Shown here in pieces: positions 3,953 through 64,000 of a stretch of DNA of 64,000 nucleotides. The translations under genes and the position numbers were made by a program. The DNA is from Hasllibacter sp. MH4015 (GTDB lineage Bacteria; Pseudomonadota; Alphaproteobacteria; Rhodobacterales; Rhodobacteraceae), in assembly GCF_020177575.1 (NCBI RefSeq), contig NZ_JAHTBK010000001.1:744001-808000 (forward strand), read 5' to 3'. Under the pieces are notes generated by a model that saw only the letters and a list, made by a program, of their open reading frames with translations, ran no database searches and was not told the origin of the DNA. How positions within the stretch are numbered: position 1 is the first letter of the stretch; each line of letters opens with the position of its first letter.

Positions 3953-4671
3953 GCGACCTGACCGGCAAGGTGATCCTCGTCACCGGGGCCGCGCAAGGGA
4001 TCGGCGCAGCCGCCGCGCTGGCATGCGAACGGGCCGGGGCGCAGGTGATCCGGACCGACAGGACGCCGGGCGCGGACATCGTGGCGGATCTGAGCGACGC
4101 CGATGCCCCGGAGGATTTGATCGCGCAAGCTGTGGCGCGGGCCGGGCGGCTGGACGGGTTGGTCAATGCCGCCGGTCTGACCACACGGGCATCTTTCACC
4201 GATGCCGATGTGGCGCGGTTCGACGAATTGATCGCGGTGAACCTGCGCGCGCCGTTCTTCCTCATGTCCGGTCTGATCCGCCATTTGTTGGGGCGGGGCG
4301 CGGGCGGCGCGATCGTGAACATCCAATCCATGAACGCCCATTGCGGCATCGCGGAGCTTGCGGTTTACGCGGCCACGAAGGGGGGTCTCCAGACCCTGAC
4401 CAAGAATGCGGCGCAGCATCACATGGCCGACAGGATCAGGGTTAACGGCATTAACCTTGGCTGGGTGGCCACGGAATCCGAACGCGCGCTGCGGGACGCG
4501 GAGAACGGCGAAGGCTGGATTGAGGCACAGGCCGCGCAGCAGCCATTGGGCCGCTTAGTCAGCGCCGAGGAATGCGCGGCGCAGGTCGTCTGGATGCTGT
4601 CGGATGCATCCGTGCCGATGTCGGGGTGTTGCATGGACCTGGAGCAATGGGTCGCGGGAGCCGCGCCGTGA
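3949..4671 (+). CDS. Short-chain dehydrogenase/reductase (SDR)
   Basis: A 240-residue classical SDR. It has the NAD(P) Rossmann motif VTGAAQGIG near the N terminus, NAAG in strand 4, and the catalytic Ser127, Tyr140 and Lys144 (IVNIQSMNA, VYAATKGG). The start codon is TTG, overlapping the Rieske stop as TTGA; no better in-frame ATG exists before the Rossmann fold. As third gene of the oxygenase operon it probably oxidises the hydroxyl exposed by, or neighbouring the site of, oxygenase action. Substrate unknown. It converges with the LacI gene at 4677, leaving 5 nt. Confidence 0.9.
   Translation: MSDLTGKVILVTGAAQGIGAAAALACERAGAQVIRTDRTPGADIVADLSDADAPEDLIAQAVARAGRLDGLVNAAGLTTRASFTDADVARFDELIAVNLRAPFFLMSGLIRHLLGRGAGGAIVNIQSMNAHCGIAELAVYAATKGGLQTLTKNAAQHHMADRIRVNGINLGWVATESERALRDAENGEGWIEAQAAQQPLGRLVSAEECAAQVVWMLSDASVPMSGCCMDLEQWVAGAAP
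4441..4455. repeat. GTTAAC-N3-GTTAAC-type palindrome, one mismatch
   Basis: GTTAACGGCATTAAC inside the SDR gene, codon-phased as Val-Asn-Gly-Ile-Asn. Confidence 0.5.
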
Positions 4672-4676
4672 TGGCC

Positions 4677-5696
4677 CTATCCCGGCGGCGCGGTGGAGCC
4701 GCGAATGACAAGCTCCACCGGCAAAAGCTCTTCCCTTGCGGGGGCTTGCGCGCCACGCAGCCGGTCGAGAAGGCGGTTGGCCGCCGTCTGACCCAGGCGC
4801 ACCCGATCTTGCCGGATCGTGGTCAGCGCGGGCACGTAGCTGCGCGCCATGTCGATGTCATCGAACCCCACGACGGAGATGTCGTCGGGCACGCGCAAAC
4901 CTCCGGCGGTGAGCCCGGCGATGAGCCCGAAAGCAACCATATCGGCGGCGCAGAACACCGCACTCGGCCGATCCGCCATGGCAAGGATGCGGCTGGCGGC
5001 CTCGTGCCCCGATTGCAGGGAGAAGTCGCCGCGAATGATCCAGTCCGACCGCGCGGGAAGGCGAAGGCGCGCGCGTTCTTCGACCATGCCCTGCCTGCGC
5101 ACGGCGGTCAGCACGTTGCCCTCGGGTCCTGTCACATGGGCGATCTTGCGATGCCCAAGCTCCGCAAGGTGCCGGATCGCGAGGCGCGCGCCTTCCTTGT
5201 TGTCGGATTGGATCGAGGGGAAACTTTGCCCCTCAACCCATTCACAGGCAAAGACAATCTTGCTGTCGAGGCCTTGGGCACGGCACTGGTCGAGCGCGCG
5301 GGCCGACAGGCCGCCGTCCAGGGAGATCACGCCATCGACGCGCCCTTGCGTGAAGTTGCCCGCAAGCTCCCCCTCCGACAGGGGGCTGTTTTCGGTGTCG
5401 GCGATCAGCACGGCATAGTCGCTGCCCGCGAAACCGTCCGAGATGCCGCGCAGGATCGCGGAATAGAACGGTTTTCCAAGGTTCGGGACGAGGACAAGAA
5501 CCGCGCCCGCCCGCTTCATGCGCAGGTTCCGGGCGGCCTGGTTCACCCTGTATCCGGTCGCCGCGATCGCCTCCATCACCTGCGCGCGGGTGCCGTCGGA
5601 CAAGAGGCCCGGATTGGACAGGGCCCGGCTGACCGTCGCGGTCGAGACGTTGGCCGCGCGGGCCACGTCCTGAATCGTTGCACTTTTGGGGGGCAT
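4677..5696 (-). CDS. LacI-family transcriptional regulator
   Basis: A 339-residue LacI/PurR-type repressor. The HTH (TIQDVARAANVSTATVSRAL, about residues 7-26) is followed by NPGLLSDGTRAQVMEAIAATGY and the hinge, then a sugar-binding-type effector domain (VLVLVPNLGKPFYSAILRG; VVGFDDIDMARSYVPALTTI). It is divergent from the large dehydrogenase/ABC operon that starts at 5859. The spacer holds two CG-centred 14-bp operator-like sites 43 bp apart, the arrangement expected for a LacI-type repressor that can loop DNA. It likely controls the 5859-16486 operon and itself in response to the imported substrate. Confidence 0.92.
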   Translation of the reverse strand: MPPKSATIQDVARAANVSTATVSRALSNPGLLSDGTRAQVMEAIAATGYRVNQAARNLRMKRAGAVLVLVPNLGKPFYSAILRGISDGFAGSDYAVLIADTENSPLSEGELAGNFTQGRVDGVISLDGGLSARALDQCRAQGLDSKIVFACEWVEGQSFPSIQSDNKEGARLAIRHLAELGHRKIAHVTGPEGNVLTAVRRQGMVEERARLRLPARSDWIIRGDFSLQSGHEAASRILAMADRPSAVFCAADMVAFGLIAGLTAGGLRVPDDISVVGFDDIDMARSYVPALTTIRQDRVRLGQTAANRLLDRLRGAQAPAREELLPVELVIRGSTAPPG

Positions 5697-5730
5697 GCGG
5701 CCTCCACCCTCGACGTGAATTATCGGCTTG

Positions 5731-5755
5731 ACTCGAATCCGATCACGGTTCGAGT
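5731..5755. promoter_or_regulatory. Inverted repeat ACTCGAA-N11-TTCGAGT
   Basis: A perfect 7-bp inverted repeat in the divergent LacI/SDR spacer, immediately left of the first LacI-type operator. It overlaps a TTGACT (5728-5733) that could be a -35 element for the rightward operon. It may be a site for a second regulator or part of the promoter architecture; its sequence differs from the LacI-type sites. Confidence 0.35.
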
Positions 5756-5756
5756 A

Positions 5757-5770: not shown

Positions 5771-5799
5771 GTTTCCGGCCAGCGCAAATTTCCCGCGGC

Positions 5800-5813: not shown

Positions 5814-5858
5814 GAGGGGGACTTAGGTGGGGCGCTTGAACGGGTCAGGATGCATCGG

Positions 5859-6575
5859 ATGAGCGGCGCGCCACGGTTCAACGGTGCCGACGTACTGGTC
5901 GTGGGGGCCAGCCGTGGGGGGATCGGCGCGGCCATCGCGCGGGCATTCCAAGATGCGGGCGCGCGCGTGCGGATCACGGGGTTGGAGGACGCGCCCCTGG
6001 CCGACGACGCAGCGCGCTTCGACTACGTGCAGCTGGACGTCACCGACACCGACGCGGTCGCGGCTTTCGCAAAACCGGTTAACCGCCTTGACGTCTTGGT
6101 GAATTGCGCCGCCCTGACCCGCCGGGGGGAGGAGATGGATCCCGACTTCTTCGCCCATGTCGTGAACGTGAACCTGATCGGGTCGTTACGCTGCGCCGAT
6201 GCCCTGAAGGATGCGTTGCGGGGCGGATCGGTGATCAACATCGCGTCGATGTACGCGCGGTTCGGATCGCCGAGAAACCCGGCCTATGGTGCGTCCAAGG
6301 CCGGGGTGGAGCAAATGACGAAATCCCTCGCGATTGCCTGGGCCGAGCGCGACATCCGGGTCAACGCCATCGCGCCGGGATTCATCGTGACGGAACAATC
6401 GGCCCGCGCGCGCCAGGACCCCGCATTCACCAAAGCCATCGAGGATCGAACGCCCATGGGGCGCTGGGGGCAGCCGGAGGATATCGTGGGCCCGGCCCTG
6501 TTCCTTGCCAGCGACGACGCGCGGTTCATCACCGGGGCAACGATCCCGGTCGACGGGGGATATTCTGTTGTTTGA
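5859..6575 (+). CDS. Short-chain dehydrogenase/reductase (SDR)
   Basis: A 238-residue SDR, first gene of the operon running to 16486. It has LVVGASRGGIG at the Rossmann turn, catalytic Tyr143 and Lys147 (YGASKAGVEQM) and the C-terminal ITGATIPVDGGY typical of the family. The ATG at 5859 is preferred because CAGGA lies 8 nt before it; an ATG at 5850 has no useful ribosome site. The open frame extends leftward to about 4572, but that part is only the antisense of the LacI gene. Together with the following dehydrogenases it probably oxidises a polyol or sugar. Confidence 0.9.
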   Translation: MSGAPRFNGADVLVVGASRGGIGAAIARAFQDAGARVRITGLEDAPLADDAARFDYVQLDVTDTDAVAAFAKPVNRLDVLVNCAALTRRGEEMDPDFFAHVVNVNLIGSLRCADALKDALRGGSVINIASMYARFGSPRNPAYGASKAGVEQMTKSLAIAWAERDIRVNAIAPGFIVTEQSARARQDPAFTKAIEDRTPMGRWGQPEDIVGPALFLASDDARFITGATIPVDGGYSVV

Positions 6576-6584: not shown

Positions 6585-7751
6585 ATGAGCGGTTTTTCAT
6601 CCTTGAATGCCGCTGTGATCGGCACCGGTTTCATCGGCACCGTCCATGTTCAGGCCCTTCGTCGGCTGGGCGTTCAGGTGCGCGGTGTGCTCGGGTCGTC
6701 GGCGGAGCGGGGCGCGGCCCGCGCGGCGGAGATCGGCGTGCCGAAAGCCTACCGCGACCTCGATGATCTGCTTGGCGACGGCGATGTCGACGTGGTCCAT
6801 GTCACGTCCCCGAACCACGCCCATTATGCCCAAGTGAAGGCCATCTTGAAGGCCGGCAAGCACGTGATTTGCGAAAAGCCGCTCGCGATGACCAGCGCCG
6901 AGAGTGCCGAGATGGTGGAGATCGCCAAGGCGTCGGGCAAGGTGGCGGCGGTGTGCTACAACATCCGCTTCTATCCGCTCAACCAGCAAGCGCATGGAAT
7001 GGTTAAGGACGGTCATCTTGGGGACATCCGCTTCGTGACCGGGCACTACCATCAGGATTGGCTTGCCAAGGACGACGATTGGAACTGGCGGCTGGTGGCG
7101 GAAGAGGGCGGTGCGCTGCGGTCGGTGGGCGATATCGGCACGCATTGGGTCGATCTGACGAGCTTCGTAGCCGGGCTGAAAGCGGACGCGGTGATGGCGG
7201 AACTGGCGACGTTCATCCCCGAACGGAAACGTCCAACCGGACCGGTCGAGACATTCGGGCGCGCGTCGGGCGCAGCGGAAACCGTTGAAATCACCACCGA
7301 CGACGCGGCGATGATCATGGTCCGTTATCCCGGCGGCGCACGCGGTGTGATGAGCACGAGCCAAGTCAATATGGGCCGGAAAAACTCACTGCAATGGGAC
7401 ATCGCGGGGCAGACGGCCAGCGCGGCCTGGGACAGTGAGACGCCGGATCACCTGTTTGTCGGGCATCGTGACCGACCCAACGAGATCCTGATGCGCGACT
7501 TCACCTTGATGAACGAGACCGGAACCCGCGCCGCGACGTTGCCACCGGGCCACGTCGAAGGCTTCGCGGACAGTTTTTTCAACTTTTTCAGGGCAGTATA
7601 CACGGACGTTCACAGCGGCGCACGGCAGGACGACAGTACGTGGGCAACGTTTGAGGATGGCCATTACGAGATGCTGTTTTGCGACGCCGTGATCCTGTCG
7701 GCGCGCGAAGGTCGCTGGGTAAGTTTGGACGAGATCGGGGGATCGGCATGA
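6585..7751 (+). CDS. Gfo/Idh/MocA-family oxidoreductase
   Basis: A 388-residue NAD(P)-dependent dehydrogenase. The Rossmann fold begins NAAVIGTGFIGTVHVQAL and the family signature lysine is in CEKPLAMT, followed by the C-terminal alpha/beta substrate domain. Members oxidise sugars, inositols and their derivatives (glucose-fructose oxidoreductase, inositol 2-dehydrogenase, rhizopine MocA). GAGAGGGG precedes the ATG; the stop overlaps the next ATG by ATGA. At 388 residues it matches the longer UDP-N-acetylglucosamine-3-dehydrogenase-like members, but the substrate cannot be read from sequence. Confidence 0.9.
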   Translation: MSGFSSLNAAVIGTGFIGTVHVQALRRLGVQVRGVLGSSAERGAARAAEIGVPKAYRDLDDLLGDGDVDVVHVTSPNHAHYAQVKAILKAGKHVICEKPLAMTSAESAEMVEIAKASGKVAAVCYNIRFYPLNQQAHGMVKDGHLGDIRFVTGHYHQDWLAKDDDWNWRLVAEEGGALRSVGDIGTHWVDLTSFVAGLKADAVMAELATFIPERKRPTGPVETFGRASGAAETVEITTDDAAMIMVRYPGGARGVMSTSQVNMGRKNSLQWDIAGQTASAAWDSETPDHLFVGHRDRPNEILMRDFTLMNETGTRAATLPPGHVEGFADSFFNFFRAVYTDVHSGARQDDSTWATFEDGHYEMLFCDAVILSAREGRWVSLDEIGGSA

Positions 7752-8662
7752 AACTTGGACTTTTGACGGCGCCGTTCGAGGACAGCGCGCTGATGGATGT
7801 GGCGGCATGGGCCGGGTCGAACGGATTTTCGGCATTCGAAGTTGCGTGCTGGCCTGACAGCGGCGGAGAGAAGCGTCGCTACGCGGGGACGTCGCACATC
7901 AACGTCGACGGGCTGAGCGCGGGTGCAGGCCAAGATATCATCGGGGGCCTTCGGGAACACGGGATCGAGGTCAGCGGTCTTGGTTATTACCCAAACCCGC
8001 TGCACGCCGATGCGAGCCACCGGGAGGAGGTGATCGGCCACCTGATGAAGGTCATCACCGCCGCCAGCACGATGGGGGTTAACGTCGTTAACACATTCGT
8101 GGGCGGGGACCGTAGCCTCAACGTCGATGAGAACTGGGCTCGCGCGGTTGAAATCTTCAATCCCATCGTCGCCCATGCACAGGCGTCCGGCGTGCGGTTT
8201 TGCTTCGAAAATTGCCCGATGATCTTCAGCTACGACGAATGGCCGGGCGGTCATAATATCGCCTACAGCCCAAAGATCTGGCGGCGCATTTTCGAGCAAT
8301 GGGGCGACGCGGTCGGCATGAATTTCGACCCCAGCCACCTGATCTGGCAATTCATCGACCAGACGCGGTTCATCAAGGAATTCGGGCCCCACATGGCCCA
8401 TGTCCACGCCAAGGACGTGATGGTGGACCGCGACGGGCTCTACGAGAACGGGGTCATGTCGACGGGCATGGGCTGGCAGGTGCCGCGCCTGTGCGGATTG
8501 GGCGATGTGGATTGGTCGGATTTCTTCAGCGGTCTTTATCGGGCCGGATATGACGGGCCCATCATCATCGAACACGAGGATCGCCTGTTTGAGGGCACCG
8601 ACGAAAAGATCAAGCGCGGCTTCCTTTTGGCCCGCGATGTCTTGCAACCATACATCAAGTAG
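7748..8662 (+). CDS. Sugar phosphate isomerase/epimerase (xylose-isomerase-like TIM barrel)
   Basis: A 304-residue AP-endonuclease-2/xylose-isomerase-like barrel of the IolE/IolH/hydroxypyruvate isomerase group. Likely metal ligands are the Glu in RFCFENCPM, the Asp and His in NFDPSHLIW, the His in MAHVHAKD and the Glu in IIIEHED. Such proteins epimerise, isomerise or dehydrate keto-sugars and inosose. It starts with an ATGA overlap on the preceding dehydrogenase, so a dehydrogenase product as substrate is a reasonable inference. Exact reaction unknown. Confidence 0.88.
   Translation: MKLGLLTAPFEDSALMDVAAWAGSNGFSAFEVACWPDSGGEKRRYAGTSHINVDGLSAGAGQDIIGGLREHGIEVSGLGYYPNPLHADASHREEVIGHLMKVITAASTMGVNVVNTFVGGDRSLNVDENWARAVEIFNPIVAHAQASGVRFCFENCPMIFSYDEWPGGHNIAYSPKIWRRIFEQWGDAVGMNFDPSHLIWQFIDQTRFIKEFGPHMAHVHAKDVMVDRDGLYENGVMSTGMGWQVPRLCGLGDVDWSDFFSGLYRAGYDGPIIIEHEDRLFEGTDEKIKRGFLLARDVLQPYIK
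8078..8092. repeat. GTTAAC-N3-GTTAAC palindrome, perfect
   Basis: GTTAACGTCGTTAAC inside the isomerase-like gene, read as Val-Asn-Val-Val-Asn. A weaker relative (ATTAACGTCGTTCAC) lies 1.2 kb on at 9254-9268. Confidence 0.6.
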
Positions 8663-8713
8663 AGGGTGCCAAGCCCCTGAAACTAAATACCAAATCCCAT
8701 GGGAGGAAAGACT

Positions 8714-9733
8714 ATGAAAAGACTTCTGACAAGTGCCGCCGTGATGGCCATGCTGGCCCCCGGCGCCGTGTTCGCGGACGGGCATTCGCCCTATACGATC
8801 GGCGTGTCGAACACGGTTCAGGGCAACGGGTGGCGTGAGCAGATGATCTGCGCCATGCGCGCGCAGGCGGCCGCCGAAGAGGACGTGGCCGAATTGATCG
8901 TGGCGCACCGCAACACCGATGCCGCCGGTCAGCTGGAAGACCTCAATAACCTGATCGAGGCGGGCGTGGACGCGATCGTACTGAACCCCGCGAACCCCGA
9001 CGCGCTGAACTCCGCGCTCGACGCGGCTATCGAGGCGGGCATCGTCGTCGTCGCCGTGGATGCCGGTGTGACGGCGGAAGGGGCCTATATTCTGTCCAAC
9101 AACCAGGAAGAATATGCCTATCTCGGTGCGCGCTGGCTGTTCGAACAGCTCGGCGGTGAAGGTGACGTCGTCTACATGCGCGGGATCGCGGGTGTGTCCG
9201 CCGATACGGACCGCGACAACGGGTTCCAGCGCGCCCTGGCGGAGTACCCGAACATTAACGTCGTTCACGAAGTCTTCACCGGCTGGCAGCAGGACCAGGG
9301 CAAGCAGCAGATGTTCGATTTCCTTGCCACGGGCATTCCGTTTGACGGTGTCTGGACGAGCGGAATCGACAACGTGATCGTGGATGCTTTCGTGGAATCC
9401 GGCGCGCCGCTGGTGCCGATCGTGGGTGCGGACAATGCGGGCTTCGTGCAGTACCTGGCCGAAACCGAAGGCTTGCAGGGCGCCGCCGTGACCAACCCCG
9501 GCTCCGTCGGCGGGGCGGGCATCGCGCTGGCCGTGGACATCCTGAACGGCGGAGCGCCGGAGGAGACGACGGTCCTGGTCGATCCGGTCCTTTGGGAGAA
9601 CACCACCGCAGAGGGGCAAGAGATCATCGCAGGCGCGTTGAACCCGAACCTCGATCCGGAATGGCCCGTCTCCGTCTCCATCCCCGGATGGACGGATTAC
9701 TCCATGGAGGAAATCATCGCCTGCGAAGGCTGA
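8714..9733 (+). CDS. Sugar ABC transporter substrate-binding protein (RbsB-like)
   Basis: A 339-residue periplasmic type-I binding protein of the CUT2 family. A signal peptide is clear (MKRLLTSAAVMAMLAPGAVFA, cleaved near FA-DG), followed by a ribose-binding-protein-like fold (LIEAGVDAIVLNPANPDALN, VVAVDAGV, GWQQDQGKQQMFDFLA). GGGAGG sits 8 nt before the ATG at 8714; the in-frame ATG at 8699 would include this Shine-Dalgarno and is rejected. It should deliver a sugar or cyclitol to the two permeases encoded downstream. A strong hairpin follows the gene. Confidence 0.92.
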   Translation: MKRLLTSAAVMAMLAPGAVFADGHSPYTIGVSNTVQGNGWREQMICAMRAQAAAEEDVAELIVAHRNTDAAGQLEDLNNLIEAGVDAIVLNPANPDALNSALDAAIEAGIVVVAVDAGVTAEGAYILSNNQEEYAYLGARWLFEQLGGEGDVVYMRGIAGVSADTDRDNGFQRALAEYPNINVVHEVFTGWQQDQGKQQMFDFLATGIPFDGVWTSGIDNVIVDAFVESGAPLVPIVGADNAGFVQYLAETEGLQGAAVTNPGSVGGAGIALAVDILNGGAPEETTVLVDPVLWENTTAEGQEIIAGALNPNLDPEWPVSVSIPGWTDYSMEEIIACEG

Positions 9734-9804: not shown

Positions 9805-11295
9805 ATGGCCGAGAATACGGGGCAGAGCCTCCTTGATGCGAGTGGCATCGCCAAGAGCTTCGGGGCCGTCCGGGCGTTGAGCGATGCGAGCCTGCATGTC
9901 GCGCGCGGCGAGGTCGTGGCCCTGATGGGGGCCAACGGGGCGGGCAAGTCGACGTTTGTGAAGATCATCACCGGCGCGCTCAAGCCCGACCAGGGGGAGG
10001 TGCTGATCCGCGGGCAGCGCGCCTTTGTGGGCAGTCCCGCGCAGGCCCGGCGCTCGGGCCTTGTCCCGGTCTATCAGGAACCCTCGCTGATCCCTGATCT
10101 GGACGTGTCCGACAACCTGCGCCTGGGTGACACGCCGGTGGAGTCATTTCTTAACTGGGTTAACGAATTGGGGATCGAGGGGCTGCGACTGGATCACATG
10201 ATCGCCGATCTGCCACTTGCGACGCTGCGCATCCTCGATCTGGCGCGTGCGCTGGCCGCGGAACCCAATGTCCTGTTGCTCGATGAGATGACGGCGGCGC
10301 TTCCCACCGACCTGGTGGAGCGGGTGCTGAAGGTCGTGCGCGGGCAGGCCGATGAGGGGCGGGGCGTGATCTATATCTCGCACCGTTTCACGGAAATATC
10401 CGAGCTTTGCGACAGCGCCACCGTGCTGCGCGACGGGCGAACGGTCGGCGACGTGAGGATCGAGCCGGGCGTGGAGGAGCGTGTGGTGGAAATGATGCTG
10501 GGCGCGAAGCTGGACCTCGGGGACCGCGCGGCGACGGTGCAGGCCGCCACCCAAGGTACGCCCCGACTGCGCGTGCGCCAGATGGCGGTCGCACCCAAGG
10601 TCACGGACGTCACCTTCGATCTGTACCGGGGCGAGGTCCTTGGCGTCGTGGCGCTGGAGGGGCAGGGGCAGGACGAGGTGTTCGACGTGCTGGCCGGCTT
10701 TTGCAAGGCCAGCGGCGGCACGGTCGAGGTTGATGGCAAGCGGATCAACTTCGCCCATCCCGCCGATGCAATTGTCGCGGGCCTGACGCTTGTACCGGGC
10801 GACCGGGCCGAGGCGCTTTTGCGCGAACGCTCGGTACGGGAAAACATCGCGTTGCCGTTTTCGGCGCGGGTGCGGGATTGGGGGCCGCTCAAGGGCAAGC
10901 GGGAAGCCGCGCGCGTCGATCACGCGATCGAAAAGTTGCAGATCGACACGCGCGCCCAGGGCGAAGTGCAGCGCCTGTCGGGCGGCAACCAGCAGAAGGT
11001 CACGATTGGCCGCTGGCTCGCCCACGGGGTCGAAACCCTGCTTCTGTTTGATCCGACCCGCGGCATCGACGTCCGCACCAAGCGGCAGATCTACCCGTTG
11101 GTCCGCGAATTGGCGGAGCAGGGGGCGGCGATCCTGTTCTACACCTCGGAACTGGAGGAGGTGCGCTTGGCCTGCGACCGGGCCGTGGTGATCTTCAATG
11201 GCCGCGTGGTGGATGTGATCGACGCCGCCGATGCCGATGAACAGACGCTGATGCGCGCGGCCTACGGGCTGACCGAGAAGAAAGTCGCATCATGA
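9805..11295 (+). CDS. Sugar ABC transporter ATP-binding protein (two NBDs, CUT2 type)
   Basis: A 496-residue double ATPase of the RbsA/MglA type. NBD1 has an intact Walker A (GANGAGKST) and Walker B/catalytic Glu (LLLDEMTAAL), but its signature region reads LPLATLRIL instead of LSxGExQ. NBD2 has the reverse pattern: Walker A degenerate (LEGQGQDEV), signature intact (LSGGNQQKV), and Walker B altered to LLLFDPTRGID. One complete composite ATP site (NBD1 Walker motifs with NBD2 signature) and one dead site are therefore predicted. AGAGG precedes the ATG. The stop overlaps the permease ATG by ATGA. Confidence 0.92.
   Translation: MAENTGQSLLDASGIAKSFGAVRALSDASLHVARGEVVALMGANGAGKSTFVKIITGALKPDQGEVLIRGQRAFVGSPAQARRSGLVPVYQEPSLIPDLDVSDNLRLGDTPVESFLNWVNELGIEGLRLDHMIADLPLATLRILDLARALAAEPNVLLLDEMTAALPTDLVERVLKVVRGQADEGRGVIYISHRFTEISELCDSATVLRDGRTVGDVRIEPGVEERVVEMMLGAKLDLGDRAATVQAATQGTPRLRVRQMAVAPKVTDVTFDLYRGEVLGVVALEGQGQDEVFDVLAGFCKASGGTVEVDGKRINFAHPADAIVAGLTLVPGDRAEALLRERSVRENIALPFSARVRDWGPLKGKREAARVDHAIEKLQIDTRAQGEVQRLSGGNQQKVTIGRWLAHGVETLLLFDPTRGIDVRTKRQIYPLVRELAEQGAAILFYTSELEEVRLACDRAVVIFNGRVVDVIDAADADEQTLMRAAYGLTEKKVAS
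10150..10164. repeat. GTTAAC-N3-GTTAAC-type palindrome, one mismatch
   Basis: CTTAACTGGGTTAAC inside NBD1 of the sugar ABC ATPase, read as Leu-Asn-Trp-Val-Asn. Confidence 0.5.
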
Positions 11296-37444: not shown

Positions 37445-38356
37445 CTAAAGGGCAGAAAGCCGCGCCTCCTGCCGCGCGATCAGCGTCTCGATTTCGGCGA
37501 TGGCCGCCTCGCTCAGCGCGGGCCCCGGCTTGCGTGCCGTCGGATGGGCGATCGCCCCGCGTTTGGCGAGGATATACTTGCGCACCGCCAAGCCGTAGCC
37601 GGGTTGGGATTCGTAACGGATCAGCGGCAGGTAGGCATCGAAAATGTCGCGCGCGCGGTCCGGGTCCGAATGGGCCAGCGCCGTGATATCGCGCATCATC
37701 TCGGGATACGCGAACCCGGTCATCGCCCCGTCGGCCCCGCGCCGCACCTCCTCCAGCAGGAATTGCCCGCCATTGCCGCACAGGATGGAGATCTTGCGCG
37801 CCCCCGCCGCCTCCTGTTCACGCAAGGCGCTGATCTTTTCCAGCCCCGGCCAATCCTCGTGCTTGAGCATCTTGCAGGTCGGGCAGGCATCGAAAATCCG
37901 CCGCAGGACCTTCGGCGTGATCTGCACGCCCGTCACAAGCGGGAAGTCCTGCAAGACCCATGGGACGTCGCCCAGAACATCCGCAACATTCTGAAAATAC
38001 GACGCAATCTGGTCGTCGGTCCGCAGATTGCCCGGCGGGGCGACCATGACGCCGGCTGCCCCTTTCTCCATCGCCGCAAGGCTCAGGGCGCGGATCGCGG
38101 CAAGCCCGGGGGCGGACACGCCGACGATGACCGGCACGTCACTGCGCGCCGTCACCCGCGCGATGACGGCGACGGATTCCTCCGACGACAGCTTGCCCGC
38201 TTCGCCCATGATGCCCAGGATCGTAAGCCCCGTCGCACCCCGCTCAACATAGAAATCCACCATCGTGTCGACGCTCTCCAGATCCAGCGCCCCGTCCGGC
38301 AGGAACGGGGTGGCGGCGATCGTGAAGACGCCTGCGGCGCGCTCATCCAACATCAT
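37445..38356 (-). CDS. Dihydrodipicolinate synthase (DapA) family protein
   Basis: A 303-residue TIM-barrel lyase family protein. The Schiff-base lysine is in CKMLKHEDWPG and the substrate carboxylate loop in LGIMGEAGKLSSEE (GxxGE). The YNxP tyrosine motif of DapA reads QDFP, so it is not the biosynthetic enzyme. It follows the racemase gene with an ATGA overlap and has GGAGAG just upstream; a second ATG one codon later is also possible. As last gene of the hydantoinase-like cluster it may cleave or form a keto-acid product. Confidence 0.85.
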   Translation of the reverse strand: MMLDERAAGVFTIAATPFLPDGALDLESVDTMVDFYVERGATGLTILGIMGEAGKLSSEESVAVIARVTARSDVPVIVGVSAPGLAAIRALSLAAMEKGAAGVMVAPPGNLRTDDQIASYFQNVADVLGDVPWVLQDFPLVTGVQITPKVLRRIFDACPTCKMLKHEDWPGLEKISALREQEAAGARKISILCGNGGQFLLEEVRRGADGAMTGFAYPEMMRDITALAHSDPDRARDIFDAYLPLIRYESQPGYGLAVRKYILAKRGAIAHPTARKPGPALSEAAIAEIETLIARQEARLSAL

Positions 38357-39036
38357 GTCTCTCCAACTCTGTGGGTCTGGTTCAGGGCGATGCGCGGCAA
38401 TGCCATCGCGACGGCGGCCTGGCACGGTTCGACCACCGGAATGTCCAGGGCTTTCTCCAGCGGCAAGCGGAACCGCGCCATTCCGGCACAGCCCATGATA
38501 AGGACATCCGCACCGTCCTGATCGCGCAGGCGGCGCCCGACCTCTTCCATCCGCGAAAGCGTCTTTCCGGCATCGTTAAGCTCGTTAACGTGCAGATCGA
38601 CCGCCCGGTCACCGGCGAGCCGATCCAGCACATTCATCGCCCCGAGGCTGCGCAGATGGCGGGGGATTGAGCCTCGCAATATGGCAATGATCCCAAAGCG
38701 TTGACCCAGGGACATGGCCGTCAGGACCGCACTTTCCTGTATGCCGAGCACGGGCTTTCGCGTCCGGTCACGCAAGGCGTGCAGGCCCGGATCGCCAAAA
38801 CACGCAATCACGAACCCGGCCGCGTCGTCCTCGACCCGGGCGGCGGTTTCCAGGGTCTGGGCAATGGTCAGGTCCGCCTGCGCCTTCGTCTCGATCCCCA
38901 TCGGCCCGCGGGCATTCGTCATGCAGATGATCCGGCGCCCGAACCCTTTCAGCGGGTCAACGGCGGCTTCGATACCGGCTGTCACGGCCTCGGACGAATT
39001 CGGGTTAAGGACGTAAAGGGATCGCTCGTCCGCCAT
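38353..39036 (-). CDS. Asp/Glu/hydantoin racemase family protein
   Basis: A 227-residue racemase-fold protein with the two catalytic cysteines in VIACFGDPGL and IMGCAGMARF, and YVLNPNSSEAVT at the N terminus as in hydantoin racemase HyuE and allantoin racemase. The ATG at 39036 is used, 4 nt after the VOC stop; an in-frame GTG at 39048 would overlap it. Next to a dihydropyrimidinase-family hydrolase it probably racemises a hydantoin- or ureide-type substrate. Confidence 0.88.
   Translation of the reverse strand: MADERSLYVLNPNSSEAVTAGIEAAVDPLKGFGRRIICMTNARGPMGIETKAQADLTIAQTLETAARVEDDAAGFVIACFGDPGLHALRDRTRKPVLGIQESAVLTAMSLGQRFGIIAILRGSIPRHLRSLGAMNVLDRLAGDRAVDLHVNELNDAGKTLSRMEEVGRRLRDQDGADVLIMGCAGMARFRLPLEKALDIPVVEPCQAAVAMALPRIALNQTHRVGET
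38575..38589. repeat. GTTAAC-N3-GTTAAC-type palindrome, one mismatch
   Basis: GTTAAGCTCGTTAAC inside the racemase gene; on the coding strand it reads Val-Asn-Glu-Leu-Asn. Confidence 0.5.
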
Positions 39037-39040
39037 CGGC

Positions 39041-39436
39041 TCAGGCACCGGGTCGCGTCGCCGATTGGATCTCGATCTGGTAGCCCTCGGGATCGTTGAA
39101 GACGAACGCTCGGATCCCGATGGCGTCGTTCACGAACATCTCCGACAGGTTCGCCACGTCCTGCGTCTCGATATAGGCGTACCACGCATCCACGTCCGGA
39201 ACGCGCACGCAGAACTGGATCGGCTTGACCTCCGCCCATTTGTTCATGCCATGGGCCTCGTCCACCAACCCGATATGGGCGCCCGGACAGACGCGCATGA
39301 TCTTCGCAAGGCCCTGTTGGTCGATCACCAGCGGAAAGCCCATTACGTCGCGATAAAACGCCTCCGCGCGCGGCAGATCCTTGTAGTAAAGGAAGGTAAT
39401 GGCCAGTTCGTTCGGCGCGTCTGGGCGGTCCGTCAT
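39041..39436 (-). CDS. VOC (glyoxalase/dioxygenase superfamily) protein
   Basis: A 131-residue vicinal-oxygen-chelate fold protein: ITFLYYKDLPRAEAFYRDVMGF, IGLVDEAHGMN, and the C-terminal RAFVFNDPEGYQIEIQS with the metal-binding Glu. GGAG lies 7 nt before the ATG, which overlaps the hydantoinase stop by ATGA. VOC proteins isomerise, epimerise or cleave small substrates, or only bind them. Its role in this cluster is not known. Confidence 0.85.
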   Translation of the reverse strand: MTDRPDAPNELAITFLYYKDLPRAEAFYRDVMGFPLVIDQQGLAKIMRVCPGAHIGLVDEAHGMNKWAEVKPIQFCVRVPDVDAWYAYIETQDVANLSEMFVNDAIGIRAFVFNDPEGYQIEIQSATRPGA

Positions 39437-47215: not shown

Positions 47216-48660
47216 CAGAACGCGGCCTCCACCGGGGACATGCCGACATAAACGGTCTTGAGTTGCGAATAATGCTCGATGGCCGCCTTCGAATTCTCCC
47301 GCCCGAGGCCCGAGCCTTTCATGCCGCCAAACGGCACCTCCACCGGCGTCAGGTTGTATTGGTTGATCCAGACGGAGCCTGCGTCAATCGCGTGGACCAC
47401 CCTGTGTCCGCGCGTCAGGTCGGCGGTGAACACGGCGCCCGAAAGCCCCAGATCGGTGGCATTGGCCCGCGCGATCACCTCGTCCTCGGTCTCGAAATCC
47501 AGCACGGACATCACGGGGCCGAAAATCTCTTCTTGCGCGATACTCATGTCGTCGGTCACGTCCGCGAAAATCGCGGGTTCTATGAAGCAGCCTGGCCGGT
47601 CCAGGCGCGTGCCGCCATGGATAAGCCGCGCGCCTTCGGACAGACCTTTTTCGATGTAGGAACAGGTGATTGCGAGCTGTTCTTCACTCACCATCGGCCC
47701 GAAATTCGTGGCCTCGTCCCGGGGATCGCCGATCACCGCCTTGGAGGTTCTGGCCACCAGCCGGTCCAGAAACGCCTCCTTGATCCCCGATTGCACGAAG
47801 ACCCGCGTGCCGTTGGAACAGACCTGGCCCGAGGCATAGAAATTCGCGTTGATCGCCGCCGAAACGGCGCTTTCCAGATCCGCGTCGTCGAAGATGATCA
47901 GGGGCGACTTGCCGCCCAACTCCATCGTCGCATGTTTCATCTGCGCGGCGGCGGCGGCGTAGACGCGTTTGCCCGTGGGGGCGGACCCTGTCAGGGAGAC
48001 CTTTGCCGTGCGCGCGTCCTCGACCAGCGCCTTGCCGACCGCTCCCGCCCCTTGCAACACGTTGTAGACGCCAGGCGGCGCTCCGGCCTCCGTCAGGATT
48101 TCCGCGACTTTCAAGGCACATAGCGGCGTCTGTTCGGACGGTTTGAAGATCATCGAATTGCCGCAAGCCAGCGCAGGCGCGCCCTTCCACGCCGCGATCT
48201 GCGTCGGGTAATTCCACGCGCCGATCCCCACGCACACACCCAACGGCACCCGCATCGTATAGGCCCAATCGCCGCCCAGGGGCACGTGCTCGCCCGTCAG
48301 CGTCGCGGCCAATCCGCCGAAGTATTCCAACGCATCAGCCGCCGAGGTGGCGTCGGCCACCAGCGTTTCCTGCAACGGCTTGCCGGTATCGAGCGTTTCC
48401 AATTCCGACAATTCGCGGTTCCGGTCCCGCATGATATCCGCCGCCCGCCGCAACACGCGGCCCCGCTCCACCGGCATCCACGCGGCCCAGTCCTTCTGCG
48501 CCTCGGACGCCGCGGCCAAAGCCGCCTCCACGATGGCTGGCGTGGCCTCATGGACCAACGCGATCTGCTCGCCCGTGGCCGGAAAGATGACAGGCATCTC
48601 CGCGCCCGCCTTGTCCTCGACATAGGCGCCGTTGATGTAGTGGGAGGCCGTGGGTTGCAT
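47215..48660 (-). CDS. betB: Betaine-aldehyde dehydrogenase
   Basis: A 481-residue aldehyde dehydrogenase. Seen: the NAD-site [20 protein letters not shown], the GSAPTGKRV loop, catalytic Glu in TMELGGKSP, catalytic Cys in [12 protein letters not shown] and the C-terminal [15 protein letters not shown]. It oxidises betaine aldehyde to glycine betaine. Two consecutive ATG codons are present; the second is preferred because GAGG lies 6 nt before it. It overlaps betC by one base. Confidence 0.96.
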
Positions 48661-50168
48661 CATTCACCTCGGGGAAAGCGTTGATTTTCCTCAACAACGT
48701 TGAGGTCCATGTGATTGCGCATATAGCGGTTGGAGGCGTCGCGGAGGGGCTGGAAATCCCACGGGTAATAGGCCCCGTTGCGCAAACTCTCGTAGATGAC
48801 CCAGCGGCGGGCCTGGCTTTCGCGGACATCCGCGTCGAAGGCTTCCAGATCCCAGCGCGCGGCGGCCAGAACGCGAAACTGCTCCAGCGTGGCGGCATGG
48901 GCGGGGTCTTCGGCAAGGTTCTTCAATTCCGGCGGATCGGCCTGCATGTCGAACAATTGCTCGGGGTCGATGGCGCAATTGGTGTATTTCCAGCGGCCCT
49001 CGCGCAGGGCGATCAGGGGCGAATAAGACGCCTCTGCCGCGTATTCCATCGCCACCGGGTTAACGCGGTTAACGCCTTGGCCAAGCGGCACGAGGCTTTC
49101 GCCGTCGGTCCACGGCATCACGTCCGCCATGCTGACGCCCGCCAGATCACACAGCGTCGGGCACAGGTCGATGGTCGAAACCGGTGCCTCCACCAGTCCC
49201 GCCTCCATCCCCGGCGCGGAAATCATCAATGGCACCCGGGCCGAGCCCTCGAAGAACGTCATCTTGAACCACAGGCCCCGCTCGCCAAGCATGTCGCCGT
49301 GGTCCGACACGAAGATCACGATCGCCTCCTGCCGGGTGCGCTCCAGCACGTCCAGCACGCCGCCGATCTTCTCATCGAGGTAGGAGATATTGGCGAAATA
49401 GGCCCGCCGCGACCGCCTGATATCCTCATCCGAAATCTCGAAATTTTCCCGGTCATTCGCATCCAGAATCCGCTGAGAATGCGGGTCCTGATCGTCGTAG
49501 GGCAGGGCGCCCACCTCCGGCATCAGGTGCTCGCAATCCGCGTAGAGGTCCCAAAACCGCTTGCGCGCGACATAGGGGTCATGGGGATGGGTGAAGCTGA
49601 CCGTCAGGCACCAGGGCCGGTCGTCGTGCCCACGGCTGAGGTCATAAAGCTTCTGCTCCGCCTCGAACGCGACCGCGTCATCATATTCCATCTGGTTGGT
49701 GATCTCGGCCACACCCGCGCCGGTGACGGAGCCCATGTTGTGATACCACCAGTCGATCCGCTCCCCCGGTTTACGGTAATCCGGCGTCCAGCCGAAATCG
49801 GCGGGGTAGATATCGGTCGTCAGCCGCTGCTCGAACCCGTGCAACTGATCCGGGCCGACGAAATGCATCTTGCCGGACAGGGCGGTGTAATACCCCGCGC
49901 GGCGCAGGTGATGGGCATAGGTCGGGATCGAGGAGGCGAATTCGGCCGCATTGTCATAAACGCCCGTGCGCGACGGCAATTGCCCCGACATGAAACTCGC
50001 CCGGCCCGGCGCACACAGGGGCGACGCGGTGTAGCTGTTGGCAAACCGCGTGGACCGCGCCGCCAGGGCTTTGAGGTTTGGCGCGTGCAGCCAATCGGCG
50101 GGCCCGTCGGGAAACAGCGTCCCGTTCAACTGGTCCACCATCAGGATCAGGATGTTCGGCTTGCTCAT
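48660..50168 (-). CDS. betC: Choline-sulfatase
   Basis: A 502-residue type-I sulfatase. The formylglycine site is C52-A-P-G-R56 ([14 protein letters not shown]); metal ligands are in [11 protein letters not shown] (Asp11) and in [12 protein letters not shown]. The C-terminal part [11 protein letters not shown] is typical of choline sulfatases. It hydrolyses choline-O-sulfate to choline and sulfate in the cytoplasm. The Cys-type site requires a formylglycine-generating system, which is not in the window. It overlaps betI by 4 nt. Confidence 0.95.
49059..49073. repeat. GTTAAC-N3-GTTAAC palindrome, perfect
   Basis: GTTAACGCGGTTAAC inside betC, read on the coding strand as Val-Asn-Arg-Val-Asn. 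Confidence 0.6.
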
Positions 50169-50737
50169 GCGATGGCCCCGTTGAGGTAATCCATGACGCG
50201 CGCCACCGCGGCGTTGCCGTCGGGCGGGCCGATCTCCGCCAGGGCATGGCGGATATAGAGCCCGTCGATGAGGGCGGCGGCGGTCTGCGCGATCTGTCCC
50301 GGCGTATCGGTTAACGGCGTTAACGCATGGGTCAGGTTGGACACGAGCCGATGCTGGTAGACCCTGAGCAGGCGCGCCGCCTCCGCGTCCCGCTGCGCCA
50401 TGACGTAGAAGGTCAGCCAGGCCGACACGACCTCCGGGTTGAAGTTCGGCCCCGCGAAACTGGCCCGCGCGATCGCCTCCAGCCGTTCCATCGGCGTGGC
50501 CGCGCGGGACAGCTCCGCCCGCGCCGCCGCCCCGAACTCCCGCAAGATCGCGCGCATCGCCGCCAGCAGCAGGTCGTCCTTCGATCCGAAATAGTGATGC
50601 GCCAGCGCGCTGCTCACGCCCGCGACCTTGGCGATCTGGCCAACGGTCACGTCAAGGCTGCCCGCGCGCCCGATCTCGCTAATCGTCGCGTTGACAAGCG
50701 CGTCCTTCCGTATAGCCATCATACCTGTGCGGGGCAT
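50165..50737 (-). CDS. betI: TetR-family choline-responsive repressor BetI
   Basis: A 190-residue TetR-family regulator. The N terminus MPRTGMMAIRKDALVNATI matches the BetI start pattern, and the HTH is VGQIAKVAGVSSALAHHYF. AGGAG sits 8 nt before the ATG at 50737. It leads the betICBA operon and is divergent from choX; a palindrome in the spacer (50781-50794) is the likely operator for both. BetI represses in the absence of choline. Confidence 0.93.
   Translation of the reverse strand: MPRTGMMAIRKDALVNATISEIGRAGSLDVTVGQIAKVAGVSSALAHHYFGSKDDLLLAAMRAILREFGAAARAELSRAATPMERLEAIARASFAGPNFNPEVVSAWLTFYVMAQRDAEAARLLRVYQHRLVSNLTHALTPLTDTPGQIAQTAAALIDGLYIRHALAEIGPPDGNAAVARVMDYLNGAIA
50310..50324. repeat. 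GTTAAC-N3-GTTAAC palindrome, perfect
   Basis: GTTAACGGCGTTAAC inside betI, 1.25 kb from the betC copy. It sits in a different codon phase (Leu-Thr-Pro-Leu-Thr), which argues that DNA, not protein, sequence is conserved. Confidence 0.6.
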
Positions 50738-50780
50738 CGCGATCACTCCTAGACTGCGTTGCCCCTGAAATACCATTTTA

Positions 50781-50794
50781 ATTGACTGGTCAAT
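50781..50794. promoter_or_regulatory. Candidate BetI operator
   Basis: ATTGACTGGTCAAT is an inverted repeat (ATTGAC-TG-GTCAAT) in the 96-bp spacer between betI and choX, and its TTGACT could also serve as a -35 element for choX. Its position and TetR-type symmetry fit BetI control of both transcripts. Confidence 0.65.
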
Positions 50795-50833
50795 CAACAA
50801 AGCGACCAGCCATCAATCGGGAGATGACACACC

Positions 50834-55545: not shown

Positions 55546-56555
55546 GCACGGCCGTTTCCTTCAAGGATGTTTGCATCATGTTCGGCCCGCGCCCGGCGCG
55601 CGCCCTGAAACTGGCCGATGACGGCAAGACCCGGTCGGAGATCCAGCGGGAGACCGAGCACGTGCTTGGCGTCCACGATTGTTCGCTCGACGTGGAGGCG
55701 GGGGAAATCCTTGTCCTGATGGGCTTGTCCGGGTCGGGGAAGTCCACGTTGCTGCGCGCGGTTAATGGCCTCAACCCGGTGGCGCGCGGCAAGGTGGAGG
55801 TGCGCGACGGCGATTGGTCCTGCACGCTCCCCGGCACCACGAAACAGGATTTGCGCTACCTTCGCCAGAACTGCGTGTCGATGGTGTTCCAGCAATTCGG
55901 CTTGCTGCCTTGGCGCAGTGTGCGAGAAAACGTGGGCCTGGGCCTGGAACTTGCAGGTCAGAACGCGGCGTCGCGCAATGAGGCGGTGGAACGTCAGCTG
56001 GCGCTGGTGAACCTCAGCGAATGGGCGGACCGCAAGGTGGGTGAGCTTTCGGGCGGCATGCAACAGCGCGTGGGTCTGGCCCGCGCATTCGTCACCGACG
56101 CGCCGATCCTGTTGATGGATGAACCGTTCTCCGCGCTTGATCCGCTGATCCGCTCGAAGTTGCAGGACGAACTGCTGGACCTGCAACGGGATCTGAAGCG
56201 CACCATCATTTTCGTGAGCCATGATCTGGACGAGGCGTTCAAGATCGGCAACCGCATCGCGATCCTTGAGGGCGGGCGCATCGTGCAGATCGGCACGCCG
56301 CGGCAGATCTTTTCGGAACCCGCCACCGAATACGTCGCCGAATTCGTGTCGAACATGAACCCCCTGGGAGTTCTGACCGCGCGCGACGTGATGCAGGACA
56401 TCCCCAGCACCGCGCCCCGTATCCCCGTCGAGATGCCGGTGAAGGACATTCTGACCCGCTTCGCCGAAAGCCCCGCGCCATTGGCGGTAGAGGAGAATGG
56501 GGAGGTCATAGGCACCGTCACCACGGACAGCATCGCCGCCCGCCTCGGCGCCTGA
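55542..56555 (+). CDS. choV: Choline ABC transporter ATP-binding protein
   Basis: A 337-residue ATPase of the ProV/ChoV type. The N-terminal IMFGPRPARALKLADDGKTRSEI is typical of ChoV. Walker A is GLSGSGKST, signature LSGGMQQRVGLARAF, Walker B ILLMDEPFSALD. After the ATPase domain comes a short tail with a CBS-like region (PVKDILTRFAESPAPLAVEENGEVIGTVTTD), which in related ATPases senses ionic strength. It converges with the acyl-CoA dehydrogenase gene. Confidence 0.94.
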   Translation: MSTAVSFKDVCIMFGPRPARALKLADDGKTRSEIQRETEHVLGVHDCSLDVEAGEILVLMGLSGSGKSTLLRAVNGLNPVARGKVEVRDGDWSCTLPGTTKQDLRYLRQNCVSMVFQQFGLLPWRSVRENVGLGLELAGQNAASRNEAVERQLALVNLSEWADRKVGELSGGMQQRVGLARAFVTDAPILLMDEPFSALDPLIRSKLQDELLDLQRDLKRTIIFVSHDLDEAFKIGNRIAILEGGRIVQIGTPRQIFSEPATEYVAEFVSNMNPLGVLTARDVMQDIPSTAPRIPVEMPVKDILTRFAESPAPLAVEENGEVIGTVTTDSIAARLGA

Positions 56556-61338: not shown

Positions 61339-63066
61339 ATGACCCTGTTTGCCCAGATCCGCGAAACCGTTTTGCGCGCCATCGACGCGCTGGCCGCCGA
61401 AGGGGTCCTGCCCGCCGGGCTGGAGACGCGCGCCATCACGGTGGAGCCGCCGCGCGACGCGGCCCATGGCGATATGGCAACCAACGCCGCGATGGTGCTG
61501 GCCAAACCCGCCGGCATGAAACCGCGCGACATCGCGGACGCCTTGGCCCGTGCGCTTTCGGATGACGACAGGATCGACAGCGCGGACGTGGCGGGGCCGG
61601 GCTTTCTGAACCTGCGTCTTGCGCCGTCGGTCTGGCAGGGCGTCGTGGCCGAGGTGTTGCAATCCGGCGATGCCTATGGGCGGTCTGCAACAGGTCAGGG
61701 TCAGCGCGTAAACGTCGAATATGTCAGCGCAAATCCAACCGGCCCGTTGCATGTGGGCCACACACGCGGCGCGGTCTTCGGCGATGCGTTGGCGAGCCTT
61801 CTGGCCGCGGCCGGATACGACGTGACGCGCGAATATTACATCAATGACGGCGGCGCGCAGGTCGATGTCCTGGCCCGCTCCGTCTACCTCCGCTACCTGG
61901 AGGCGCACGGGCAGGAGGTCGCGTTCGAGGATGGAACCTATCCCGGCGATTACCTGATTGAGGTGGGTCAGGCGCTTAAGAACAAGGTCGGCGACCAGTT
62001 CGTCGGCAAGGGGGAGCAATACTGGCTGGCCGAAACCCGCGAATTTGCGACCGAAAAGATGATGGACCTGATCCGGGAGGATCTGGCGCTTCTGGGCGTG
62101 GAGATGGACGTGTTCTACAGCGAGAAATCGCTCTACGGCACCGGACGGATCGAGGCGGCCATCGACGATCTGCGCGACAAGGGTCTGATCTACGAAGGCT
62201 ACCTTGAACCGCCCAAGGGAAAAAAGCCCGAGGATTGGGAACCGCGCGAACAGACCTTGTTCAAATCCACCGCGCACGACGATGACGTGGACCGTCCGGT
62301 GATGAAATCCGACGGCTCCTGGACCTATTTCGCGCCGGACATCGCCTATCATTTCGATAAGGTTTCCAGGGGGTTCGATGCTCTTATTGATGTATTCGGC
62401 GCGGATCACGGCGGCTATGTCAAACGGATGAAGGCGGCGGTGTCGGCGCTGTCGGACGGGCGCGTGCCGCTGGATGTGAAGCTCACTCAATTGGTCAAGC
62501 TGCGCCGCGGCGAGGAGGAGCTGAAGATGTCCAAGCGCGCGGGCACTTTCGTGACCCTGCGCGACGTGGTGGAGATGGTGGGCGCCGACGTCACCCGCTT
62601 CCACATGCTGACCCGCAAGAACGACGCGCCGCTTGATTTCGACGTGGACAAGGTGCGGGAACAGTCCAAGGACAACCCGGTCTGGTACGTCCAATACGCC
62701 CATGCGCGCATCCAATCGGTGTTGCGCAAGGCGGCGGAGGCGGGGATCACGCCGGACGTGGCAAACGTTAACGCTGTTGACGATCCCGCCGAACTGGCGC
62801 TGGCCGCGAAGGTGGCGGAATACCCGCGCCTGATCGAGATCGCGGCCCAGGCCAATGAGCCGCACCGGATCGCCTTCTACCTCTATGACCTTGCCTCGGA
62901 ATTTCACGCGCTGTGGAACAAGGGCAATGCCGAGCCGCATCTGCGCTTCTTCCAGGAGGATGATCCATCGGCAACATCCGGGAAATTATGCCTGATTTCC
63001 GCCGTGGCGATTGTCATTTCGAACGGTCTTGGTATTTTGGGCGTGACCCCGGTCGACCAGATGTGA
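61339..63066 (+). CDS. argS: Arginyl-tRNA synthetase
   Basis: A 575-residue class-I tRNA synthetase. Signatures: HVGH (138-141, in [20 protein letters not shown]), KMSK (396-399, [11 protein letters not shown]) and the anticodon-binding C-terminal DALR domain ending [14 protein letters not shown]. It charges tRNA-Arg with arginine. The length and C terminus are normal for alphaproteobacterial ArgS. Confidence 0.97.
62767..62781. repeat. GTTAAC-N3-GTTAAC-type palindrome, one mismatch
   Basis: GTTAACGCTGTTGAC near the 3' end of argS (Val-Asn-Ala-Val-Asp), 0.84 kb from the perfect copy in the next gene. Confidence 0.5.
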
Positions 63067-63153
63067 GGCATCAAGACCTTCCTCGGCCGGGATAAACAGG
63101 CAAACAACCCGGATCAGACCATGAAATTGGCGCTTCGGGTCAGTGAGGCGGGC

Positions 63154-64000
63154 ATGGCAGATATCCAATATTCCGGGGGCAATTCCCCCGAGTACGGCTA
63201 CGACTATTCCGAATATCCTGATGAAACGGCGGCGGGCCACGGCGCGCCCGGTGACGCATCGCGCGTGACGCAGCTTGTGAACTGGGCGGGTGCGCTGGTG
63301 TCGATGGGCCTTGTCATTGGCATGGGCGTCTGGGCGTGGCAATTGATGATGCGCGACGTGGCCGATGTGCCGGTGATCCGTGCGCTGGAAGGTCCGATGC
63401 GCATCGCGCCGGAAAACCCCGGCGGCTCGGTCGCCGAAAACCAGGGCCTCGCGGTCAACCGCCTGGCAGAAGGGGAGGAGGCCGCGCCGGTCCCCGACCA
63501 ACTCACCGTGGCACCCGGCCCGATCGAGCTGATCGAAGTGCCGCAGATCGCCGCGGACGTGCAAGAGCAGGAATTCGACAATGCGTCCGCCGCGACGCCG
63601 CAGCCAGAGGTTAACGCCGTTAACGAGCCGGTCGAGGAGGTCGCAGCGGCAGAGCCGGAAGACACCGACGCGCTGATCGAACGCCTGTTGGCCGAAGCGC
63701 AGCCTCTTGCGGGGATTGAGGAGAGTGGCTTGCCGAATGCGGCCGACACGCCGGACACCGCGACGCCCGACCTCGTGGCGCGCGCGGATACGATCCCGAT
63801 TTCCATCCCCGGCGTCCGCCGGTCCCCGCGCCCCGCCACGCGCCCCGCCGATCTTCAGGCCCGCGCCTTGGCCGCCGCCGCCGTTGCGGCCCCGGCCGCG
63901 CCCGAGGCAGAGGCCGAGGCGGCCGCCACCGGCGTTACGGAGGACGACGCAGGGTTCGAGATTGCCGCCGCGGAGCTGGAAACCGGCACCCGCCTGGTCC
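63154..64000 (+). CDS. SPOR-domain-containing protein, N-terminal part (truncated by window end)
   Basis: 282 codons are visible before the window ends. It starts with an acidic Tyr-rich stretch (EYGYDYSEYPDE), then one membrane segment (LVNWAGALVSMGLVIGMGVW, about residues 42-61), and a long Ala/Glu/Pro-rich periplasmic region. In Rhodobacteraceae a protein of this build with a C-terminal SPOR domain follows argS and precedes nagZ; the SPOR domain binds denuded peptidoglycan at the septum. Here the SPOR domain itself lies beyond the edge, so the name is from gene order and build. GAGG precedes the ATG at 63154; an in-frame ATG at 63121 is the alternative. Confidence 0.75.
   Translation, partial: MADIQYSGGNSPEYGYDYSEYPDETAAGHGAPGDASRVTQLVNWAGALVSMGLVIGMGVWAWQLMMRDVADVPVIRALEGPMRIAPENPGGSVAENQGLAVNRLAEGEEAAPVPDQLTVAPGPIELIEVPQIAADVQEQEFDNASAATPQPEVNAVNEPVEEVAAAEPEDTDALIERLLAEAQPLAGIEESGLPNAADTPDTATPDLVARADTIPISIPGVRRSPRPATRPADLQARALAAAAVAAPAAPEAEAEAAATGVTEDDAGFEIAAAELETGTRLV
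63610..63624. repeat. GTTAAC-N3-GTTAAC palindrome, perfect
   Basis: GTTAACGCCGTTAAC inside the low-complexity periplasmic region of the SPOR-type gene (Val-Asn-Ala-Val-Asn), where protein constraint should be weak. Confidence 0.6.

Follow-up and report, generated by a model that had tools for sequence, protein, structure and literature searches.

A gapped GTTAAC palindrome concentrated around dif is probably the site of a putative terminus-domain protein in part of a genus that is most likely Roseicyclus

Among described chromosomal sites, the closest in build to the one reported here is matS, through which MatP marks the Ter macrodomain of Enterobacterales and their relatives; matS has the degenerate 13-bp consensus GTGAC-RNY-GTCAC. 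KOPS (consensus GGGNAGGG) are polar and directed along the chromosome arms to dif, and the nucleoid-occlusion sites of the SlmA and Noc type are depleted at the terminus. CtrA sites have the form TTAA-N7-TTAA. The MatP site of P. thracensis, GTTACNNNGTAAC, was found by ranking words by their distance to the terminus (PMC8669397). The sites of the Caulobacter protein ZapT lie mostly inside open reading frames near the terminus and yielded no consensus (PMC7188993).

We analysed a 64-kb window (C1:744001-808000) of a genome of two contigs and 3,713,265 bases, 3,684,207 of which are in the main contig, C1; positions given below without a contig name are those of the window. The word GTTAAC-N3-GTTAAC is present there in four perfect and four one-mismatch copies, all eight of which the earlier note had located correctly. 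It is the commonest 6+6 palindrome in the window when spacings of 0 to 12 are compared, and where two GTTAAC start less than 60 bp apart the only gap between them is 3, seen four times. We counted 16 GTTAAC in the window, 12 of them in perfect or one-mismatch pairs, as the earlier note had estimated, but its expectation of about seven hexamers per window was too high, since the genome average gives about three. The TTAA cores of the perfect copies are N5 apart, and a CtrA site was rejected on this ground.

The perfect copies are at 8078..8092 (GTTAACGTCGTTAAC; predicted ORF 7679-8662, plus strand, read as VNVVN), 49059..49073 (GTTAACGCGGTTAAC; ORF 48660-50168, minus strand, probably a choline sulfatase, read as VNRVN), 50310..50324 (GTTAACGGCGTTAAC; ORF 50165-50800, minus strand, betI according to the earlier note) and 63610..63624 (GTTAACGCCGTTAAC; predicted ORF 63121-64002, plus strand, read as VNAVN). 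Those with one mismatch are at 4441..4455 (GTTAACGGCATTAAC; predicted ORF 3949-4671, plus strand, codons GTT AAC GGC ATT AAC), 10150..10164 (CTTAACTGGGTTAAC; predicted ORF 9805-11295, plus strand, read as LNWVN), 38575..38589 (GTTAAGCTCGTTAAC; ORF 38353-39048 of the Asp/Glu racemase family, minus strand) and 62767..62781 (GTTAACGCTGTTGAC; predicted ORF 61339-63066, plus strand). Two of the three weaker relatives proposed earlier, at 6078..6092 (GTTAACCGCCTTGAC) and 9254..9268 (ATTAACGTCGTTCAC; predicted ORF 8699-9733, plus strand), have two mismatches and are either weak copies or background, and the third, at 55761, has more than two. The codon phasing also agrees with what had been noticed before, with seven of the eight perfect and one-mismatch copies in phase 0, of the VNxVN type, and the betI copy in phase 2, where it is read as ALTPLT and uses two TTA codons. 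TTA makes up 18 of the 1,974 leucine codons in the window genes.

The number of copies is far above expectation. The whole genome has 183 GTTAAC and contains seven perfect pairs, compared with about 0.01 expected by simple multiplication, together with nine one-mismatch pairs. The same pattern read backwards, used as a control, gives one perfect copy and 18 with at most one mismatch, but is an unfair yardstick for copy number because its hexamer is five times commoner (896 versus 183). At the two-mismatch level, mostly background, there are 13 further copies versus 106 for the control. The comparison with codon-preserving shuffles that the earlier note had proposed came out in its favour: in 500 synonymous-codon shuffles of the 62 predicted window genes the mean was 0.04 perfect copies (four observed) and 0.51 one-mismatch copies (four observed), and only 20 shuffles had any perfect copy. 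The window holds eight of the 16 copies in the genome, a density in any 64 kb that was reached in none of 20,000 random placements. In the examined stretches of several genomes, 58 of 66 distinct copies lie in ORFs called by a simple, crude predictor and are divided between phase 0 (26 copies) and phase 2 (32 copies); phase 1, which would place TAA in frame, is not among them. The motif was the top gapped palindrome in the stretches examined from this genome and from G002, and 400 kb of G001, a genome without the site, has nothing as strong. The strongest palindrome in that G001 stretch was AAACT-N2-AGTTT, seen five times versus 0.08 expected.

The copies are concentrated in the half of the chromosome that surrounds dif. 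A dif-like 26-bp word, with zero to two changes, is found exactly once in each of the 13 genomes of the genus. In our genome it is at 1,473,351, and KOPS switch strand between 1.45 and 1.50 Mb. At the dif-like site KOPS polarity flips cleanly in the G002 and G006 stretches and, on the basis of few KOPS, in G010; G011 shows a few exceptions, and the picture in G004 is mixed. The window itself yielded no convincing dif, and a GC-skew switch near 24 kb, considered as a possible terminus, was rejected; the terminus is placed by the dif-like site and the KOPS flip. All 16 copies with at most one mismatch in our genome are in the dif-proximal half, between 703,514 and 2,074,684, so that the site is not genome-wide as first supposed. 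None of them lies between 1.20 and 1.85 Mb, an interval that includes dif, or within 0.27 Mb of dif. The G011 copies at the same level, 47 in number, are likewise all dif-proximal (1,614,358-2,861,528 of 3,621,968 bp, dif-like site at 2,137,486; four copies for the control); counts by distance at this level are for these two genomes.

For perfect copies, the numbers in the dif half are 7 of 7 in our genome, 19 of 19 in G011, 20 of 21 in G002, 17 of 17 in G004 and 15 of 15 in G010. Pooling these five chromosomes, for which the lists of positions are complete, gives 78 of 79 perfect copies with the confinement to the terminus domain that is typical of matS. The binomial p of about 3e-22 overstates the significance, since the chromosomes inherited some of their copies in common. 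This test leaves aside G006, with 19 perfect copies whose positions were not listed, and the drafts G008 and G009. The 78 copies lie within 0.9 Mb of dif (the farthest at 0.87 Mb), and the one exception is a G002 copy 1.83 Mb away. The spread is uneven, the 15 copies of G010 all being on one side of dif.

The name of the genus is most likely Roseicyclus, as judged from the similarity of one 502-residue window protein, for which the closest named records come from Roseicyclus isolates (92 and 91% identity), followed by a Rhodobacterales bacterium and Roseicyclus marinus (85% each). Perfect copies per genome number 21, 19, 19, 17, 15, 7, 5 and 4, and zero in the remaining five of the 13 genomes, one of which, G061, is only 83% complete; among the matches listed, these five have a single one-mismatch copy, in G061. 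At the level of at most one mismatch there are 61 copies in G002 (control 12), 58 in G006 (8), 19 in isolate 2-1281 (15), 2 in isolate 2-496 (10) and 2 in R. marinus (5), and a 21.5-kb locus of isolate 2-1281 holds five one-mismatch copies. Outside the genus the family shows only background: 21 of the 393 genomes sampled from its other genera (at least 90% complete) carry a copy, and two of the 21 carry a second. A tree built from the ihfA region splits the site-bearing genomes into two groups; next to one stands a clade of four site-less genomes and next to the other G061, and several forks have support of only 56-84. Both site-bearing groups have the copies at window 4441, window 50310 and C1:1202790, and the simplest reading of this sharing is an ancestral system followed by later losses. 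With five genomes out of 13 free of perfect copies, and G008 and G009 carrying only four and five, the function would be dispensable or replaceable.

Conservation was assessed by aligning G011 with a contiguous 400 kb of G002, where 17 of 45 queried copies align. All 12 specified bases are kept in 10 of these 17. In G002, 12 of the 17 deviate from the motif at one position or none and 15 at no more than two, and five carry two or more mismatches. Flanking frames are identical at such positions in 316 of 4,920 cases (6.4%), which gives a p of about 1.5e-8 that is rough because the frames overlap. A variant run on G002 stretches partly chosen around known copies gave 11 of 17, and we rely on the contiguous run. 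In that alignment conservation of the three-base centre (92%) matches that of the 12 specified bases (93%); the test therefore shows that the place is conserved, and not the 12 letters alone. Most mismatches in G011 affect the outermost G/C or the C/G beside the centre, which itself usually reads GNC. The earlier note had proposed a test of conservation in relatives; the site is conserved above flanking sequence between G011 and G002, and only partly for the copies of our own genome. Of the latter, 13 of 16 were queried and seven aligned to site-bearing genomes; four of the seven have a counterpart with no more than one mismatch in one or more of these genomes. G002 and G011 both have, at the orthologous position, the same 15 bases as at 4441, with flanks 72% identical. 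The betI copy at 50310 is kept as a perfect word in G004 (gapped alignment), with one mismatch in G002 and in isolate 2-1281 and with two in G011, and is absent at the aligned place in L131, L132 and L133. The copy at 49059 has a one-mismatch version in isolate 2-1281 (L130) and is absent at the aligned place in G002, G011, L131 and L133, so that neither of these two copies has a counterpart in L131 and L133, which are from site-poor genomes. The copy at 62767 has a two-mismatch counterpart at the aligned place in G002. At 8078 the aligned place has three mismatches in G002 and four in G011, and 10150 is not conserved in aligned G002 or G011. Conversely, our genome has no site at the aligned G011/G002 places except C1:1202790, and G001 has none at those that could be aligned.

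These data bear on several other explanations. That chance, or selection on a VNxVN peptide, produced the copies is extremely unlikely: most window copies do translate in this way, but the codon shuffles, the second phase with its TTA codons, the dif-centred distribution and the conservation all contradict it. A scattered regulon, in which the copies are operators of one transcription factor, is distinctly unlikely. Palindromes of this size are typical operators, and eight of the 66 copies are outside the ORFs of our crude predictor, but the other 58 are inside, four carrier genes checked against Pfam are unrelated (racemase, ammonium transporter, CinA and dihydrouridine synthase), and the distribution around dif would be left unexplained. 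Sites of the SlmA or Noc type would likewise be palindromic, multi-copy and mostly intragenic as here, but their distribution is the opposite of the one seen here, where the dif half holds 78 of 79 perfect copies, and we regard this reading as very unlikely. The earlier suggestion of a methylase target or a general nucleoid-protein site also leaves the terminus bias unexplained.

That the site is read by ZapT, a terminus protein of the MerR family whose gene follows ihfA in Caulobacter, is unlikely, even though the Caulobacter sites are also near the terminus and mostly within ORFs (PMC7188993). A MerR-like gene, judged by eye and by position, follows ihfA in 13 of 13 genomes, and perfect sites are in eight of 13. 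Two residues in the N-terminal region of its product partly track the sites: RGVQKMI or RGVQKLI is found in eight of eight site-bearing genomes and WLDV in seven of eight, versus RGVKKMI and WLGV in the clade of four site-less species. Against this, our own genome has WLGV, G061, which has no perfect copy and is 83% complete, carries both residues in their site-bearing form, the rest of the N-terminal region is nearly identical in all 13 genomes, and the motif is only background elsewhere in the family. ZapT sequence specificity in vitro is low (PMC7188993). With the gene in all 13 genomes and an N-terminal region almost unchanged but for the two residues, a zapT-like reader is possible but not favoured. 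Screens for genes that G001 lacks although their neighbours are conserved, covering parts of our genome, G011 and G002, did not find the binding protein. Seven screened proteins searched in Pfam were a SelR protein, a Rieske protein, a P-type ATPase and four without a match, and the sole DNA-binding candidate was a MerR gene beside a P-type ATPase (L088, 4090-4476) that resembles a copper regulator by eye. A phage origin, in which the site belongs to a domesticated phage-derived regulator or phages use a host protein, is also improbable. In viral contigs scanned for GTTAACGNCGTTAAC at least 120 stretches match, and most of the 80 listed have one copy, compatible with chance. Related uncultured marine podoviruses have seven or eight copies with at most one mismatch in L225, L229, L330, L332 and L333, the last three sharing one arrangement and being near-copies, and in two prophage-like contigs GTTAAC arrays adjoin an ORF that appears HTH-like by eye. 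Genes of the podovirus group include terminase, primase/helicase and DNA polymerase A; among the matches listed for the primase, the nearest include pelagiphages and roseophages, all below 60% identity. On the other side, the DNA polymerase is the sole phage ORF with a relative in the Roseicyclus stretches examined (part of each genome), the site-adjacent protein of L225 matches, at the limits used, neither PHROGs nor Pfam nor the phage collection, and with 2.9 million contigs in the collection one shared word may be coincidence. The word shared by podoviruses and Roseicyclus may reflect a functional link or coincidence. Among the other viral contigs with two or more copies, those inspected include L287, a terminator-like hairpin, and L219 and L260, which look unrelated.

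The reading we prefer, by analogy with MatP and matS, is that GTTAAC-GNC-GTTAAC is probably the site of a putative, probably dimeric protein by which some members of the genus mark their terminus domain. The distribution over the terminus half favours such a role, like that of matS, over one like that of SlmA or Noc; the earlier proposal of a DNA-level site comparable to all three thus stands, from shuffles, phase, distribution and conservation, for the matS build and falls for the other two. The putative protein would bind the copies and, as MatP suggests by analogy, might then bridge or condense terminus DNA, which could tie this DNA to division, SMC unloading or late segregation. In the site-less four-species clade the protein would have been lost and the copies would have decayed. 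MatP itself (PF06303) was found in none of the 13 Roseicyclus-group genomes at E<=1, in a search that on 14 control genomes gave a signal in four, including E. coli, and one above the cut-off. It is possible, though doubtful, that this is an independently evolved MatP-free terminus system, with a new DNA-binding protein and dozens of chromosomal sites, that was lost together with these sites in the sister clade and whose protein marine podoviruses carrying clusters of the word either donated or exploit. A search of literature mostly other than subscription journals and preprints found no report of the motif. A clean site, mapped positions and sister species with and without it make the origin and loss of a terminus domain, and a substitute for MatP, testable.

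Compared with known systems, the site shares with KOPS and dif that all are terminus-related sequence signals of the chromosome, but it is palindromic and multi-copy where KOPS are polar and dif is single-copy. It resembles ZapT sites in being alphaproteobacterial, terminus-biased and mostly within ORFs (PMC7188993); Caulobacter ZapT sites, in contrast, have no known consensus, and the zapT-like gene is also present in site-less genomes. The likeness to MatP/matS lies in a short palindrome with an unspecified three-base centre and several to many copies near the terminus, here mostly intragenic. This site differs from matS in being 15 bp and not 13, in its half-site GTTAAC, and in being genus-specific, absent from a sister clade and present up to 0.87 Mb from dif. 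In letters, the P. thracensis MatP site GTTACNNNGTAAC is close to GTTAACNNNGTTAAC, and is the nearest known to us (PMC8669397).

Clusters of GTTAACGNCGTTAAC are present in related uncultured marine podoviruses (viral contigs L225, L229, L269, L211, L213, L330, L332 and L333). The podovirus cluster encloses a conserved protein of approximately 170-190 aa, the gene for which holds its own copy of the site, read as VNxVN; the L225 copy of this protein, used as query, matched no family. Tandem GTTAAC arrays were observed in two prophage-like contigs (L325:3300-3500 and L316:6200-6300), where, by eye, they lie at the start of an ORF having an HTH-like N-terminus and adjoining a terminase-like gene. 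These arrays are possibly the site of a packaging protein.

Within the window, GC skew turns from positive to negative at approximately 24000, coinciding with a change in gene orientation and 0.7 Mb from the terminus. The dif-like 26-bp word GGCCAGTAATCATGATTATGTTAAAT, allowing up to 2 changes, occurs once in each of 13/13 genomes (G000:C1:1473351 in the Hasllibacter genome, plus 12 others).

Three species, site-less ones among them, have GTTAATCACATTAAC or its complement (G000:C1:1120416, G001:C1:1731895 and G003:C5:25831), possibly a conserved regulatory site unrelated to GTTAAC-N3-GTTAAC. The Hasllibacter genome also contains GTTAAC-N5-GTTAAC pairs, at G000:C1:812859 (L012:4859-4875) and G000:C1:437-453, which are distinct from the GTTAAC-N3-GTTAAC site. 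Their spacing, TTAA-N7-TTAA, matches that of CtrA sites.
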